A stretch of 64,000 nt of DNA from Thermoplasmata archaeon (GTDB taxonomy: Archaea > Thermoplasmatota > Thermoplasmata > Thermoplasmatales > Thermoplasmataceae), in assembly GCA_021810045.1 (NCBI GenBank), contig JAJZJR010000006.1, positions 1 through 64,000 of the forward strand, read 5' to 3'. The position numbers were made by a program, and so were the translations under genes. Below are positions 1-5,649 of the stretch, in pieces (position 1 is the first letter of the stretch; every line of letters starts with the position of its first letter). The notes beneath the pieces were generated by a model. The model was not told where the DNA came from and made no database searches. It saw nothing but the letters and a program-made list of their open reading frames with translations.

Positions 1-65
1 GAGAAATAAGAGGAAATGAGATAGGCAACAAGTATGAAGCCTATCAGGAATCTTAAGGGTCTCAT
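1..65 (-). CDS. Partial small membrane protein of the element (5' end only)
   Basis: An ATG at 65-63 opens a frame that runs off the left edge (21 codons visible). The start overlaps the stop of the upstream gene as ATGA and follows a purine-rich GGAGGGAGAA stretch, which supports real translation. The visible N-terminus is MRPLRFLIGFILVAYLISSY, which looks like a signal or membrane helix. It continues the chain of overlapping genes running leftwards. Function unknown. Confidence 0.5.
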   Translation of the reverse strand, partial: MRPLRFLIGFILVAYLISSYF

Positions 66-1252: not shown

Positions 1253-1456
1253 TCATGGTGTCAACTCCTTTATTGCGTTCACTGATTGAACCGGTATTTT
1301 GTAGTGTCTGCCTGATTCCTGCTCTATGTGAATATTGGCTAAACCGATCCTCTTTATGGTTCCGTTCCTGGCCATGTTCACCTTTCCTACTACATGATAT
1401 TCAATTCTTACATTGCAGCCTTTAAAATGCTCTATTTGCGAGCGAGATACAGTCAT
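1253..1456 (-). CDS. 67-residue hypothetical protein, possibly nucleic-acid binding
   Basis: 67 residues, basic, predicted mostly beta (KGCNVRIEYHVVGKVNMA, then IKRIGLANIHIEQESG). The pattern recalls small SH3/Sm-like barrels that bind nucleic acid, but no family signature is certain. It begins in an ATGA overlap with the frame that crosses the iteron field. The promoter palindrome at 1180-1228 follows it. Confidence 0.55.
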   Translation of the reverse strand: MTVSRSQIEHFKGCNVRIEYHVVGKVNMARNGTIKRIGLANIHIEQESGRHYKIPVQSVNAIKELTP

Positions 1457-1743
1457 GAGACCACCTCAAAAAATGTAGTAGTTCCAAAAGTGTAGTAATT
1501 CGGTTTTACTACACCTTGAACTCTGTTTTTTCTAGGCTCTAAAATCGATTGTAGTAATGTAGTAGTGATTTTTCGTATATGGGGATGTTTTTTAGTGATT
1601 GGTTTTCTTCTCTCATCATGTATATACAATAATTTACTACTACAATTACTACAAATAATAAAATATATAGAAAAATACAGGGTTTTAAGTGTAGTAGTTT
1701 TTGTAGTAGTTATGTAGTAATGTAGTAGTTTTTTACCGGTCAT
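1453..1743 (-). CDS. 96-codon open frame spanning the iteron field (doubtful protein)
   Basis: An uninterrupted 96-codon frame whose start overlaps the helicase stop (ATGA) and whose stop overlaps the next gene's start (ATGA), exactly like its neighbours. Its composition is odd: runs of Thr and Tyr (YYITTTKTTTLKTLY) because the iterons read as ACTACT codons. Either the replication origin lies inside a translated spacer that couples helicase to the next gene, or the frame is a by-product of the repeats. The double coupling favours translation; the composition argues against a folded protein. Confidence 0.35.
   Translation of the reverse strand: MTGKKLLHYYITTTKTTTLKTLYFSIYFIICSNCSSKLLYIHDERRKPITKKHPHIRKITTTLLQSILEPRKNRVQGVVKPNYYTFGTTTFFEVVS
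1474..1730. repeat. Iteron field, candidate replication origin of the element
   Basis: Eleven copies of a TGTAGTA(G/A)T-type unit. Direct copies start at 1474, 1491, 1550, 1558, 1690, 1702, 1713 and 1721; inverted copies lie at 1504-1513, 1634-1644 and 1645-1653. Between the clusters is a very AT-rich segment (about 1585-1685). The field lies immediately downstream of the helicase and primase genes. Clustered short repeats plus an AT-rich segment next to replication genes is the classic layout of an iteron origin; function is inferred. Confidence 0.65.
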
Positions 1744-3386
1744 TGTTCGCCATCCTCCTTGAAATACGGAATAGAAATCTTATAGGCCTTGACAGGGTAA
1801 GGCTCCGAGTTCATGCGCCTGCTCACCATTTTACCTTCATTTTCAACCTTCACGCCGTCATCGCTGGAGTAAACATTATTCAGAAAATTCGACGCATTCG
1901 AATACGGTCTGCCTAGCTGATTTGCGATCTGTTTGAAGGCTGCCCCTGTGAAATAGATAAATTCTCTATCGATGCCGTACTCCAAGTCTATTTCACCGGC
2001 GATTCTTGACTGATACCGAGTTTTGTCATGCACCACTCCGTCACTGTCCTGGTATTCCTGGACTGAGTGTTCTATACGCTTGAACTCGGCTTTAAGGGCC
2101 AGGGCAATTTCAAGGGCATTACTGGGAGCTTCGATACTTGCAGCATCGCTCTTGAACTCTGGCAGTCCCGCAATGCCATGCAAATCGCAAAGTTCGTTTA
2201 TCTTGCTGATACCGTAATTTATCCAGTCTTCGACACCTTCGAATCTTTCAACTTCACTGAGTATGTCGGTTATGTTTTTTCCTTCAAAGATGGCGCGGAA
2301 AATCTCATACATGAATCCATCAGGCAGCGAATCAAACATGGCGTCGAATTTCTTTTTGTCTTTCCGCTGCCTGTTGTATTCTGTGAACCTAATCAGCAGC
2401 AACCTCAAACTCAGGGCCAGGTCATCATCAACCCTTATGTCATCATTGATAGTTCCAATGAATGACCTGCGACCTCTGTATTCTGTAAGTGTCTGGTCTC
2501 CCCTTCCCCTGTCTCCGAAGTGCCCAGTCTGGACGTACGATTTAATGTCCTCCTTGTGCGTTAATATCCAATTGGCGGGAAGGTCATCAAACAATGCGGG
2601 AAGGTTAGACTCTCCCAGGTGCTTCATTAAAACGAATCTTGTAGCGACTCGGTTATACGGATAAAAATAATCATCCTGTTTGAGCCCGTATCCTTTGCCA
2701 ATAAAGAGGTTCCCAAGTGTAGTTTTTCCGCCTTTTGTTTTTCCGGTTAATATTGTAATTGGCGTCTGTATGCCCTTGATTGACCCCCTTTTCAGTTCAT
2801 CGTGCAGCGGGCTAACAATAGTCCATGCGAATAGTGCCTTGTATGCGTCCTGGTGCGATGCGAAAGGATAGAAGTTTATCAATGCTTTAAGGATCGTCGC
2901 GACATCGTGACGCTGCTCGTAATTCACTTTCACGGCGCTGTCTAGGACAATAATCGGGCTGCTTGCGTACAACTCAAATTTTCCGTTATCTATCTGTTGG
3001 AAAATGTAGGATGTGAGAATTTCAGTGAGGTACTGGGTCTTTGAAGATGAAAGTGCAAACTTCGACCTGAAGAATTGAACGGCTTCTTGCAAGTCAAAAA
3101 CGTAACCCTCGTTGTTGACGCTGATCCCTATTGCCGGCGCTACGTTATCTATTTTGTAGACTTTGCCGATTTCGCCGTTGAACCTAACTATGTCTCTGGT
3201 GTCTATTGCATCTTCAAGCTTTCCTGTTTTTTTGTCTTTTTTCTTGTATTCATGGATCCATTTGATTACGCCTTCTTTTCCATTACGAATAGTGCCATAT
3301 ACTTTGTCGGCCTGGGAAATCGCGATAAATATTTCACCATTGGCCGCTGCCTTAGTTTCCAGTCTTGCTGTGGAGGGGTCAGTCAT
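1740..3386 (-). CDS. Replicative helicase/ATPase of the element (P-loop)
   Basis: 548 residues. A Walker A motif (LTGKTKGGKTTLG) lies near residue 220 and a Walker B-like stretch (LPALFDDLP) near 270, followed by an arginine-rich segment (GDRGRGD, EYRGRRSFIGT) that could hold sensor and finger residues. This order fits helicases that accompany primase-polymerases in plasmids and viruses, such as SF3 or D5-like ATPases, though the exact family is not certain. The C-terminal 100 residues may be a winged-helix DNA-binding part. It overlaps the primase gene by 8 bases, and the iterons start right after its stop, so it is probably the element's replication initiator or loader. Confidence 0.75.
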   Translation of the reverse strand: MTDPSTARLETKAAANGEIFIAISQADKVYGTIRNGKEGVIKWIHEYKKKDKKTGKLEDAIDTRDIVRFNGEIGKVYKIDNVAPAIGISVNNEGYVFDLQEAVQFFRSKFALSSSKTQYLTEILTSYIFQQIDNGKFELYASSPIIVLDSAVKVNYEQRHDVATILKALINFYPFASHQDAYKALFAWTIVSPLHDELKRGSIKGIQTPITILTGKTKGGKTTLGNLFIGKGYGLKQDDYFYPYNRVATRFVLMKHLGESNLPALFDDLPANWILTHKEDIKSYVQTGHFGDRGRGDQTLTEYRGRRSFIGTINDDIRVDDDLALSLRLLLIRFTEYNRQRKDKKKFDAMFDSLPDGFMYEIFRAIFEGKNITDILSEVERFEGVEDWINYGISKINELCDLHGIAGLPEFKSDAASIEAPSNALEIALALKAEFKRIEHSVQEYQDSDGVVHDKTRYQSRIAGEIDLEYGIDREFIYFTGAAFKQIANQLGRPYSNASNFLNNVYSSDDGVKVENEGKMVSRRMNSEPYPVKAYKISIPYFKEDGEQ

Positions 3387-4326
3387 TCCGTTGCCCCCTG
3401 TTCAAAATCTCTGCTGCCTTGTCGAATCCTAAACCATAGCGATCATGGGCTGCTGCAATTGCCTGCCAGAATGTCATGCCTCTGATTGCACCTGGCTTTG
3501 CATCCTGGCAGCTTATGATTCCCTCCGCGACTGCGACCCATTGCAGCGGGCCGCCACCGGAACCGCACCTGAAGCAGTGCCAGACATTGCGCGATACATC
3601 CACAGAGAAGTTTTGTCCGCTAAATGAACCATGCGCGGGATGCGGGCCGATATAGCGGCTGCCTGACTTCCTGAATTTGCTCAGGTTGATCATGTCCGGT
3701 AGGTACAGCCCGCTCAGGTCCGGTCTTTCAAATTCGCGCTTTGGCTCTGCCTCATTTGGCTTCTCTGTTATTTCAAGCAGCCAGCCTGGAGCAGCAACGA
3801 TGGGAGAATCAAAAACGTGATACGCGCCTTTGGCCCTCACGCTGGGAGCGCGGATCACATAGCCTCCCTGGCCGCAAATGTCTATCCCTGGCAAAGCAGG
3901 ATTTCCGGTGCTTCTCTGGACAGAATACGGGGCTTCAAATGATAAATGCAGCCCGCCGGACTGTGTGAGTTCTGTCAGCGTGCGCGGGACTGTCTTTCCC
4001 TTCGTTAACTGCCTCCATGTCAAAAAACCATTTTTGCCGTGCTGATCTATGTCAACGTCAAAGCGGCCGGAATCCGGCTTTGGTACTGTTGCAAGGTTGA
4101 CCTCTGGCGTCCCCAGTATTGGTTCTCTGCTGAACCATCTGGCTATCTGTTGCGGATCATCTGAAGCGTCCTTAAATCCGTTGGCCGTGATCGGCGTTCC
4201 CGCAAAGTTGACGGGCATCACGAGGTAGCCTTTCCTCAGCCAGTACTGGGCCGCTTGAAACATTGAGGCAAAGCGAACCTCTGAAGCGAAACTCTTTATT
4301 TTCGAATCTGTATTACTATCTTGCAT
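3379..4326 (-). CDS. Primase-polymerase (archaeo-eukaryotic primase superfamily) with zinc finger
   Basis: 315 residues. The N-terminal part (about 20-190) matches the bifunctional primase/polymerase fold: metal-binding RFDVDID near 95, SGGLHLSF near 127 and PGIDICGQGGYVIRAPS near 148 correspond to the DxD, SxH and later basic motifs. A zinc-binding module follows (about 218-255: HPAHGSF then WHCFRCGSGGG), related to CHC2-type fingers of primases but with His in place of some Cys. It should synthesise primers or DNA for the element. It lies upstream of the helicase with overlapping ends, so both are made together. Confidence 0.85.
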   Translation of the reverse strand: MQDSNTDSKIKSFASEVRFASMFQAAQYWLRKGYLVMPVNFAGTPITANGFKDASDDPQQIARWFSREPILGTPEVNLATVPKPDSGRFDVDIDQHGKNGFLTWRQLTKGKTVPRTLTELTQSGGLHLSFEAPYSVQRSTGNPALPGIDICGQGGYVIRAPSVRAKGAYHVFDSPIVAAPGWLLEITEKPNEAEPKREFERPDLSGLYLPDMINLSKFRKSGSRYIGPHPAHGSFSGQNFSVDVSRNVWHCFRCGSGGGPLQWVAVAEGIISCQDAKPGAIRGMTFWQAIAAAHDRYGLGFDKAAEILNRGQRND

Positions 4327-4360: not shown

Positions 4361-4471
4361 TCATTTTTTCATCCTCTTCTCTGGCTTCTTTCCGCGCTCC
4401 GTGTCGAACGAATACAGCTTGTCCAGTAGCAAAATCAGCCGCTGCGTTCGTTCGACTCTGGTATCAGTCAT
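4361..4471 (-). CDS. 36-residue hypothetical protein coupled to AbrB-like gene
   Basis: A 36-codon frame, very basic at its end (TERGKKPEKRMKK), whose ATG overlaps the stop of the AbrB-like gene as ATGA. It lies 34 bases before the primase gene in the same orientation. The coupling and the lack of any other use of the interval support it; no motif is visible. Confidence 0.45.
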   Translation of the reverse strand: MTDTRVERTQRLILLLDKLYSFDTERGKKPEKRMKK

Positions 4472-4689
4472 GGCTTTCCCCCTGCCTGGTAGATATTCAC
4501 CGGCTCTTTTCCCACCGGCCTTATAACCAGCGTGCCGTTCCCTTTCAGCTCTATTTCCAGTTCGTCGCCCGTCTTTAGTTCGTTGGCATACAACCAGTAA
4601 ACCGGAATGCTTACGTATCGGCTGTATTTCGATACTCCCTGGAGCTTCCTTCTAAACTTCATTCCCATTTTGTGATTCGCCTTCTTCAA
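4468..4689 (-). CDS. AbrB/SpoVT-like DNA-binding protein
   Basis: 73 residues with the swapped-hairpin AbrB pattern: KLQGVSKYSRYVSIPVYWLY, then ELKTGDELEIELKGNGTLVIRP. Small proteins of this type act as repressors or as antitoxins. It is the first gene of the replication operon and faces a winged-helix gene across a 129-base intergenic region with an inverted repeat, so it may control its own operon. The final 15 residues are variable. No toxin partner is obvious, unless the 36-residue neighbour is one. Confidence 0.7.
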   Translation of the reverse strand: MKKANHKMGMKFRRKLQGVSKYSRYVSIPVYWLYANELKTGDELEIELKGNGTLVIRPVGKEPVNIYQAGGKP

Positions 4690-5574: not shown

Positions 5575-5649
5575 TGCTCCGGTCGGGATTTGGACCCGAG
5601 TCGAGAGATTGAGAGTCTCTTATGCTTGGCCTGGCTACACTACCGGAGC
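5575..5649 (-). tRNA. tRNA-Glu (CTC)
   Basis: Read on the minus strand from 5649: 7-bp acceptor stem GCTCCGG/CCGGAGC, anticodon stem AGAGA/TCTCT around loop CTCTCAA (anticodon CTC, Glu), T-stem TCGGG/CCCGA, discriminator A. No CCA is encoded and there is no intron. The T-loop is TCCAAAT: position 55 is C where T is nearly universal. The 3' end points at the integrated element, so the 3' half may have been supplied by the element's attachment site. Confidence 0.9.

Follow-up and report, generated by a model that had tools for sequence, protein, structure and literature searches.

In a small element at one end of a Thermoplasmata archaeon contig, the repeat field beside a presumed initiator helicase gene is probably that helicase's iteron origin, placed inside a translated cistron that would be selected for the passage of ribosomes and not for its product. 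This reading was reached by comparing sequences between elements. The stretch of DNA that was analysed, referred to as the window, comprises the first 64 kb of the 82.8-kb contig JAJZJR010000006.1 (assembly GCA_021810045.1, 2.26 Mb). Bases 1 to ~5.6 kb are taken up by the leftward gene run of the element, which extends to the contig end, further small genes being located beyond ORF67 (Table 1). The contig begins inside the element (window 1-62), and the assembly therefore lacks the element's far end along with any attachment repeat; a search of the assembly for a second tRNA-Glu 3' end that could serve as the attachment site found none.

Table 1. Features of the element in the window, and stand-alone field frames in relatives of the same order.
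Feature	Position	Strand	Description
tRNA-Glu (CTC)	5575..5649	-	possible integration target beside the element
MazE/AbrB-type small DNA-binding protein	4468..4689	-	first gene of the leftward run
Primase-polymerase	3379..4326	-	Pfam Prim-Pol PF09250, E 4e-23, plus CHC2-type zinc ribbon
Helicase	1740..3386	-	548 aa; P-loop GKTKGGKT; presumed initiator
ORF96	1453..1743	-	open frame spanning the repeat field
Repeat field	1474..1727		11 heptamers; minus-strand order 4 direct, 2 inverted, 2 direct, 1 inverted, 2 direct
Left set	1690..1727	+	four heptamers (1690, 1702, 1713, 1721)
AT-rich gap	1654..1689		36 bp, 17% GC; candidate unwinding stretch; almost identical in G264
Inverted heptamer pair	1638..1653	-	9 bp apart
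Core	1565..1637		73 bp, 29% GC; sequence variable, length identical in G264
Heptamer pair	1550..1564	+	8 bp apart; mirror of 1638-1653
Right outer set	1474..1513		heptamers 1474(+), 1491(+), 1507(-)
ORF67	1253..1456	-	conserved gene downstream of ORF96
Frame in G396:C57			TACCACA; 88 codons; follows the helicase gene as TAAATG
Frame in G258			TACTACC; 119 codons; ATGA at both ends
Frame in G418			GACTACA; 84 codons; ATGA at both ends; upstream of the helicase gene
Frame in G396:C69			GACTACA; 164 codons; ATGA at both ends; upstream of the helicase gene
Frame in G303			ACTACA core; 123 codons; starts just past the preceding stop; 8-nt overlap with the helicase start; upstream

The helicase carries a P-loop motif and gave no match against Pfam, PHROGs and PDB profiles; its single-sequence structure prediction reached a pLDDT of 35, and no relatives were found in viral contigs or in phage and plasmid records. 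The structure model of ORF67 was weak, with one helix and five strands, and a search for structural matches returned nothing significant. For ORF96, the protein family search yielded no match.

All eleven TGTAGTA-type repeats of the original prediction were recovered at their places by exact matching, with eight direct copies on the plus strand (1474, 1491, 1550, 1558, 1690, 1702, 1713 and 1721) and three inverted copies on the minus strand (1507, 1638 and 1647). Their spacings of 8, 11, 12, 43, 9, 80, 8, 43, 16 and 17 are identical in the closest relative, G264, which belongs to the same genus. Outside these eleven, five further copies occur in the 64 kb, one of them at 1388, the shuffled expectation for the whole window being 3.5, and a genome-wide search revealed no other TGTAGTA cluster. 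The copy at 1388 (minus strand, inside ORF67) was excluded as a twelfth heptamer because it is absent in G264. The repeats had been described as flanking an AT-rich core; the field is indeed AT-rich (28% GC vs 43% for the 64-kb window), but its lowest GC content, 17%, was found between the repeats at 1654-1689 and not in the centre at 1565-1637 (29%).

As predicted, the field is spanned by an uninterrupted frame of 96 codons, which overlaps the helicase gene at 1740-1743 and ORF67 at 1453-1456, each time as ATGA, and which is distinct from the helicase frame. A GGAGG motif is present in the last helicase codons, 10 nt ahead of the ORF96 start, and the Shine-Dalgarno sequence of ORF67, GAGGTG, is located inside ORF96.

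Comparison with G264, where gene order and repeat field are the same, revealed a gapless alignment of the 291-bp ORF96 frame, which stays open there with ATGA at both ends. All eleven heptamers are kept; the 77 repeat bases contain none of the 42 substitutions (Fisher p 1.6e-6), of which 11 to 18 are concentrated in the middle of the field. Identity between the source and G264 was 86% for the field and 76% for the helicase gene. By codon position, the substitutions were distributed as 17/14/11 in ORF96, 7/6/24 in ORF67 and 78/44/268 in the helicase gene. Among the changed codons of ORF96, 5 were synonymous and 25 nonsynonymous, with 6.8 synonymous expected under neutral, random change. It follows that the DNA is conserved and the ORF96 peptide is not; a conserved peptide was rejected, as no purifying selection was evident between the two. 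The G264 pair alone is insufficient to establish selected openness, since random substitution leaves the frame open in 0.2-0.3 of cases.

In G264, the element (L030:4757-14256, ~9.4 kb) sits between two full tRNA-Arg (TCT) copies, the second of which is adjoined by a 451-aa integrase-like protein (weak match, PHROGs E 3.5e-5). The tRNA-Arg copies and the integrase match point to an integrating element; with an N-gap near the second copy, part of the duplication could stem from the assembly. The two halves of the source primase are matched in different G264 elements, the zinc-binding half in C44 and the catalytic half in C75 (L030:7219-7608 and L062:3674-4261), which suggests domain exchange between co-resident elements.

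When as many as 400 genomes from the class and 117 from the order were searched with the helicase, fields with other heptamers came to light. Stand-alone field frames in the same order amount to seven (source, G264, G396:C57, G258, G418, G396:C69 and G303). Each begins where the preceding gene ends, and its stop overlaps the next gene; the junctions in G396:C57 and G303 are adjacent or overlapping variants. A member of a different order, G020, has 12 copies in its field, which occupies the second half of a frame overlapping the start of the helicase gene. The field lies directly downstream of the helicase gene in the source, G264:C44, G396:C57 and G258; in G264:C75, G282:C23, G282:C2 and G371 it lies within the helicase frame itself, followed by a short C-terminal part. 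Between the two G282 elements, third-position changes drop from ~28-42 to 9-14 per 60 codons at the repeats, as is characteristic of a coding region constrained at the DNA level.

Exceptions were a closed field beside the helicase gene in G072 (another order), an intergenic field away from the helicase gene in G089, and G403, where the helicase is truncated and the ATGA frame is closed after 15 codons, another frame being open for 85 codons. Given the closed G072 field and the intergenic G089 field, openness is not indispensable for such origins. The G403 locus (L140:3000-3520) is a decayed copy with the helicase reduced to its C-terminal end and the field still visible. The G089 field (L067:6418-6724) consists of at least 11 GAATACA copies, has a folding z of -12.5 and is situated ~1.8 kb before a 1039-aa primase-helicase. 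On the G020 contig, a second, palindromic GTATACA array with 17 matches over both strands together was observed away from the helicase gene (L069:11644-11818), as was a 12-bp tandem repeat inside a frame reading GFSRGFSLGFSQ (L069:4363-4609).

No such field was found at the primase loci of G067, G052, G103, G110, G258:C29, G375 and two other contigs of the source genome, and none comparable at primase relatives from other phyla; in G162, G178, G249 and G218, helicase matches were present and the field was not detected. A scan of viral contigs with TGTRGTAATTGTRGTAGT returned 53 stretches, and those examined were rejected as an unrelated gene, which encodes a repeat protein rich in cysteine (CSNCSS...) and resembles the TGTAGTA repeats through its codons. 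This gene occurs in large IMG/VR viral contigs, e.g. 3300037172_000055; one such locus is L113:6481-6963.

The fields share a common plan, as judged from exact-match spacings: three or four sites at intervals of 8-12 bp are followed by a gap of 42-46 bp, by a pair separated by 8-9 bp and by a core of 53-80 bp, after which the order is usually mirrored, completely in G418 and G020 and in partly degenerate form elsewhere. Among the long spacings of ten fields, 17 of 40 fell within 42-46 bp (p 1e-11, an upper limit on independence, as several spacings share ancestry). Because the spacings approximate one and four turns of the helix, the sites may lie on one of its faces. The heptamer sequence differs between elements while the layout persists. 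Short specific repeats, their conserved spacing, a position near the initiator gene and an AT-rich stretch within the repeats are among the properties of an iteron origin, and these are present here. The predicted iteron origin thus gains good support from comparison, with a layout conserved at helicase genes in about a dozen elements and repeats invariant between species, both of which are consistent with origin function.

To assess whether the open frames could have arisen by chance, the repeats were held fixed and the remainder was drawn from a first-order Markov model per field, counting only the field itself; the frame tested was the one set by the neighbouring genes and was not picked as the longest. 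The chance of an open frame was 0.009 for the source, 0.023 for G396:C57, 0.0014 for G258, 0.024 for G418, 0.026 for G396:C69 and 0.011 for G303, giving a joint chance of 2e-12 for six independent fields as the product of the per-field values under this simple null. In these fields, the two remaining frames contain 1 to 12 stops. TAG-bearing repeats were in the stop phase in 0 of 22 independent cases ((2/3)^22 = 1e-4, a test that overlaps with the open-frame test), and stop-free heptamers occur in all three phases. Shine-Dalgarno matches of 5 nt or longer precede the start in 6 of the 7 fields (chance 6.5% each). Judged by this null, the open frames are not due to chance. Transcripts of the fields form more stable folds than shuffled sequences do (z -3 to -8), which follows from the repeats, as the closed G072 and G089 fields fold stably too.

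Such recurrence of open frame, overlaps and Shine-Dalgarno matches in independent relatives with different repeats supports the earlier proposal that a ribosome could run through the origin. The prediction was open to refutation if related elements lacked both the repeats and the open frame; both were found.

Taken together, the field is best explained as an iteron-type origin from which a small integrative element replicates, and at which the element's own primase-associated helicase would bind two roughly mirror-image half-sites; the approximately six sites per half in the most regular relatives would suit two helicase hexamers placed face to face. We propose that the field is transcribed because it lies inside the replication operon, and that it is kept as a translated cistron for the same reason. 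The Shine-Dalgarno sequence and the ATG at the end of the preceding gene would load ribosomes, by termination-reinitiation or by new initiation, the frame would carry them, without meeting a stop, past repeats that occur in all three phases, and on termination the ribosome would be handed over to the next gene at its ATGA. Most likely, the benefit would be uninterrupted transcription and translation over a long stretch that forms hairpins, with the peptide as a by-product. We infer in this way origin function, binding of the helicase, actual translation and its benefit. The downstream genes have their own Shine-Dalgarno sites and might be translated without coupling. Of the two roles originally offered for the open frame, keeping the downstream genes coupled is more economical than a link between replication control and translation.

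A further reading, put forward tentatively as a possible one, takes the field as a control device: the iteron-bound helicase would block RNA polymerase in its own operon, and passage of ribosome and polymerase would clear or prime the origin. Such a block would reduce the output of the coupled downstream genes or, where the field precedes the helicase gene, that of the helicase. If this were true, the occupancy of the origin would be directly reflected in gene expression, and vice versa.

That ORF96 encodes a real small protein for replication, such as an origin or copy-control peptide, with the iterons overlapping its gene, is unlikely. The start signal, open frame and stop overlap recur, and the non-repeat N-terminal part in G396:C69, G303 and G020 could be an ordinary protein; however, the peptide is under no purifying selection between the source and G264, the frames range from 84 to 202 codons and are unrelated in sequence outside repeat-derived residues, and ORF96 has no family match.

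It is rather improbable that the open frame is a relic, namely that the field arose in the helicase gene, as in G264:C75, G282 and G371, and split off, its openness having no present role. Four relatives do have the field in the helicase frame ahead of a short C-terminal part. Without selection, however, fields as diverged as these would average 3 to 6 stops, a simple split does not yield the upstream position of the field in some relatives, and in the decayed G403 copy the ATGA frame closes after 15 codons. That the field is instead an operator or a centromere-like array, bound by the AbrB-type or some other protein of the element, is quite improbable, for although inverted and direct heptamers between two genes could serve any DNA-binding protein and lie where a regulator could act, the field tracks helicase genes across elements of otherwise different gene order, and two half-sites at an initiator helicase gene resemble mobile-element origins such as that of SaPI (PMC7581432).

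Read as an origin in a translated cistron, the field can be compared with described systems. Origin iterons beside an initiator helicase, as in the Staphylococcus aureus pathogenicity islands, SaPI, and iterons in an initiator gene, as in lambda O, are already known. SaPI Rep binds an iteron origin downstream of its own gene (PMC7581432), and both this rep-ori and the putative SCCmec Cch2 origin resemble the present case in having short iterons directly downstream of an initiator helicase gene in an integrating element. For the putative SCCmec origin, an intergenic position is described and no open coupled frame across the iterons is reported, whereas the present frame is open and overlaps both neighbouring genes; the present helicase has no detectable sequence-family match. 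In the lambda origin, iterons and an AT-rich stretch are located within the translated sequence of gene O (PMC6022878), and G264:C75, G282:C23, G282:C2 and G371 likewise hold iterons in the translated initiator frame. The source does not: the lambda frame is that of the initiator protein itself, and the source frame is a separate cistron with a peptide that is not conserved.

When overlapping genes from archaea and bacteria were tested in Haloferax and E. coli, 13 of 14 pairs showed strict coupling (PMC6728339), and a methanogen study described programmed internal termination in operons that is distinct from bacterial polarity (PMC10450193). With ATGA termination-reinitiation coupling, the present sets share the overlapping stop and start, found at both ends as ATGA in the source, G264, G258, G418 and G396:C69 and as variants in G396:C57 and G303; the difference is that the middle cistron here appears to be a passage through the origin and not a needed protein.

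Iteron origins are usually regarded as noncoding or, as in lambda, as part of the initiator gene. In a limited search of the open-access literature, no description was found of an origin as a separate, non-conserved yet consistently open and coupled cistron. Such a system offers a simple genetic test of whether translation through the origin matters, and the variation of the heptamers under a constant layout provides a way to study the joint change of an initiator and its sites. The conservation of a DNA-level layout with helical spacing and of a separately initiated, stop-free frame, but not of the peptide, would amount to selection for translatability.
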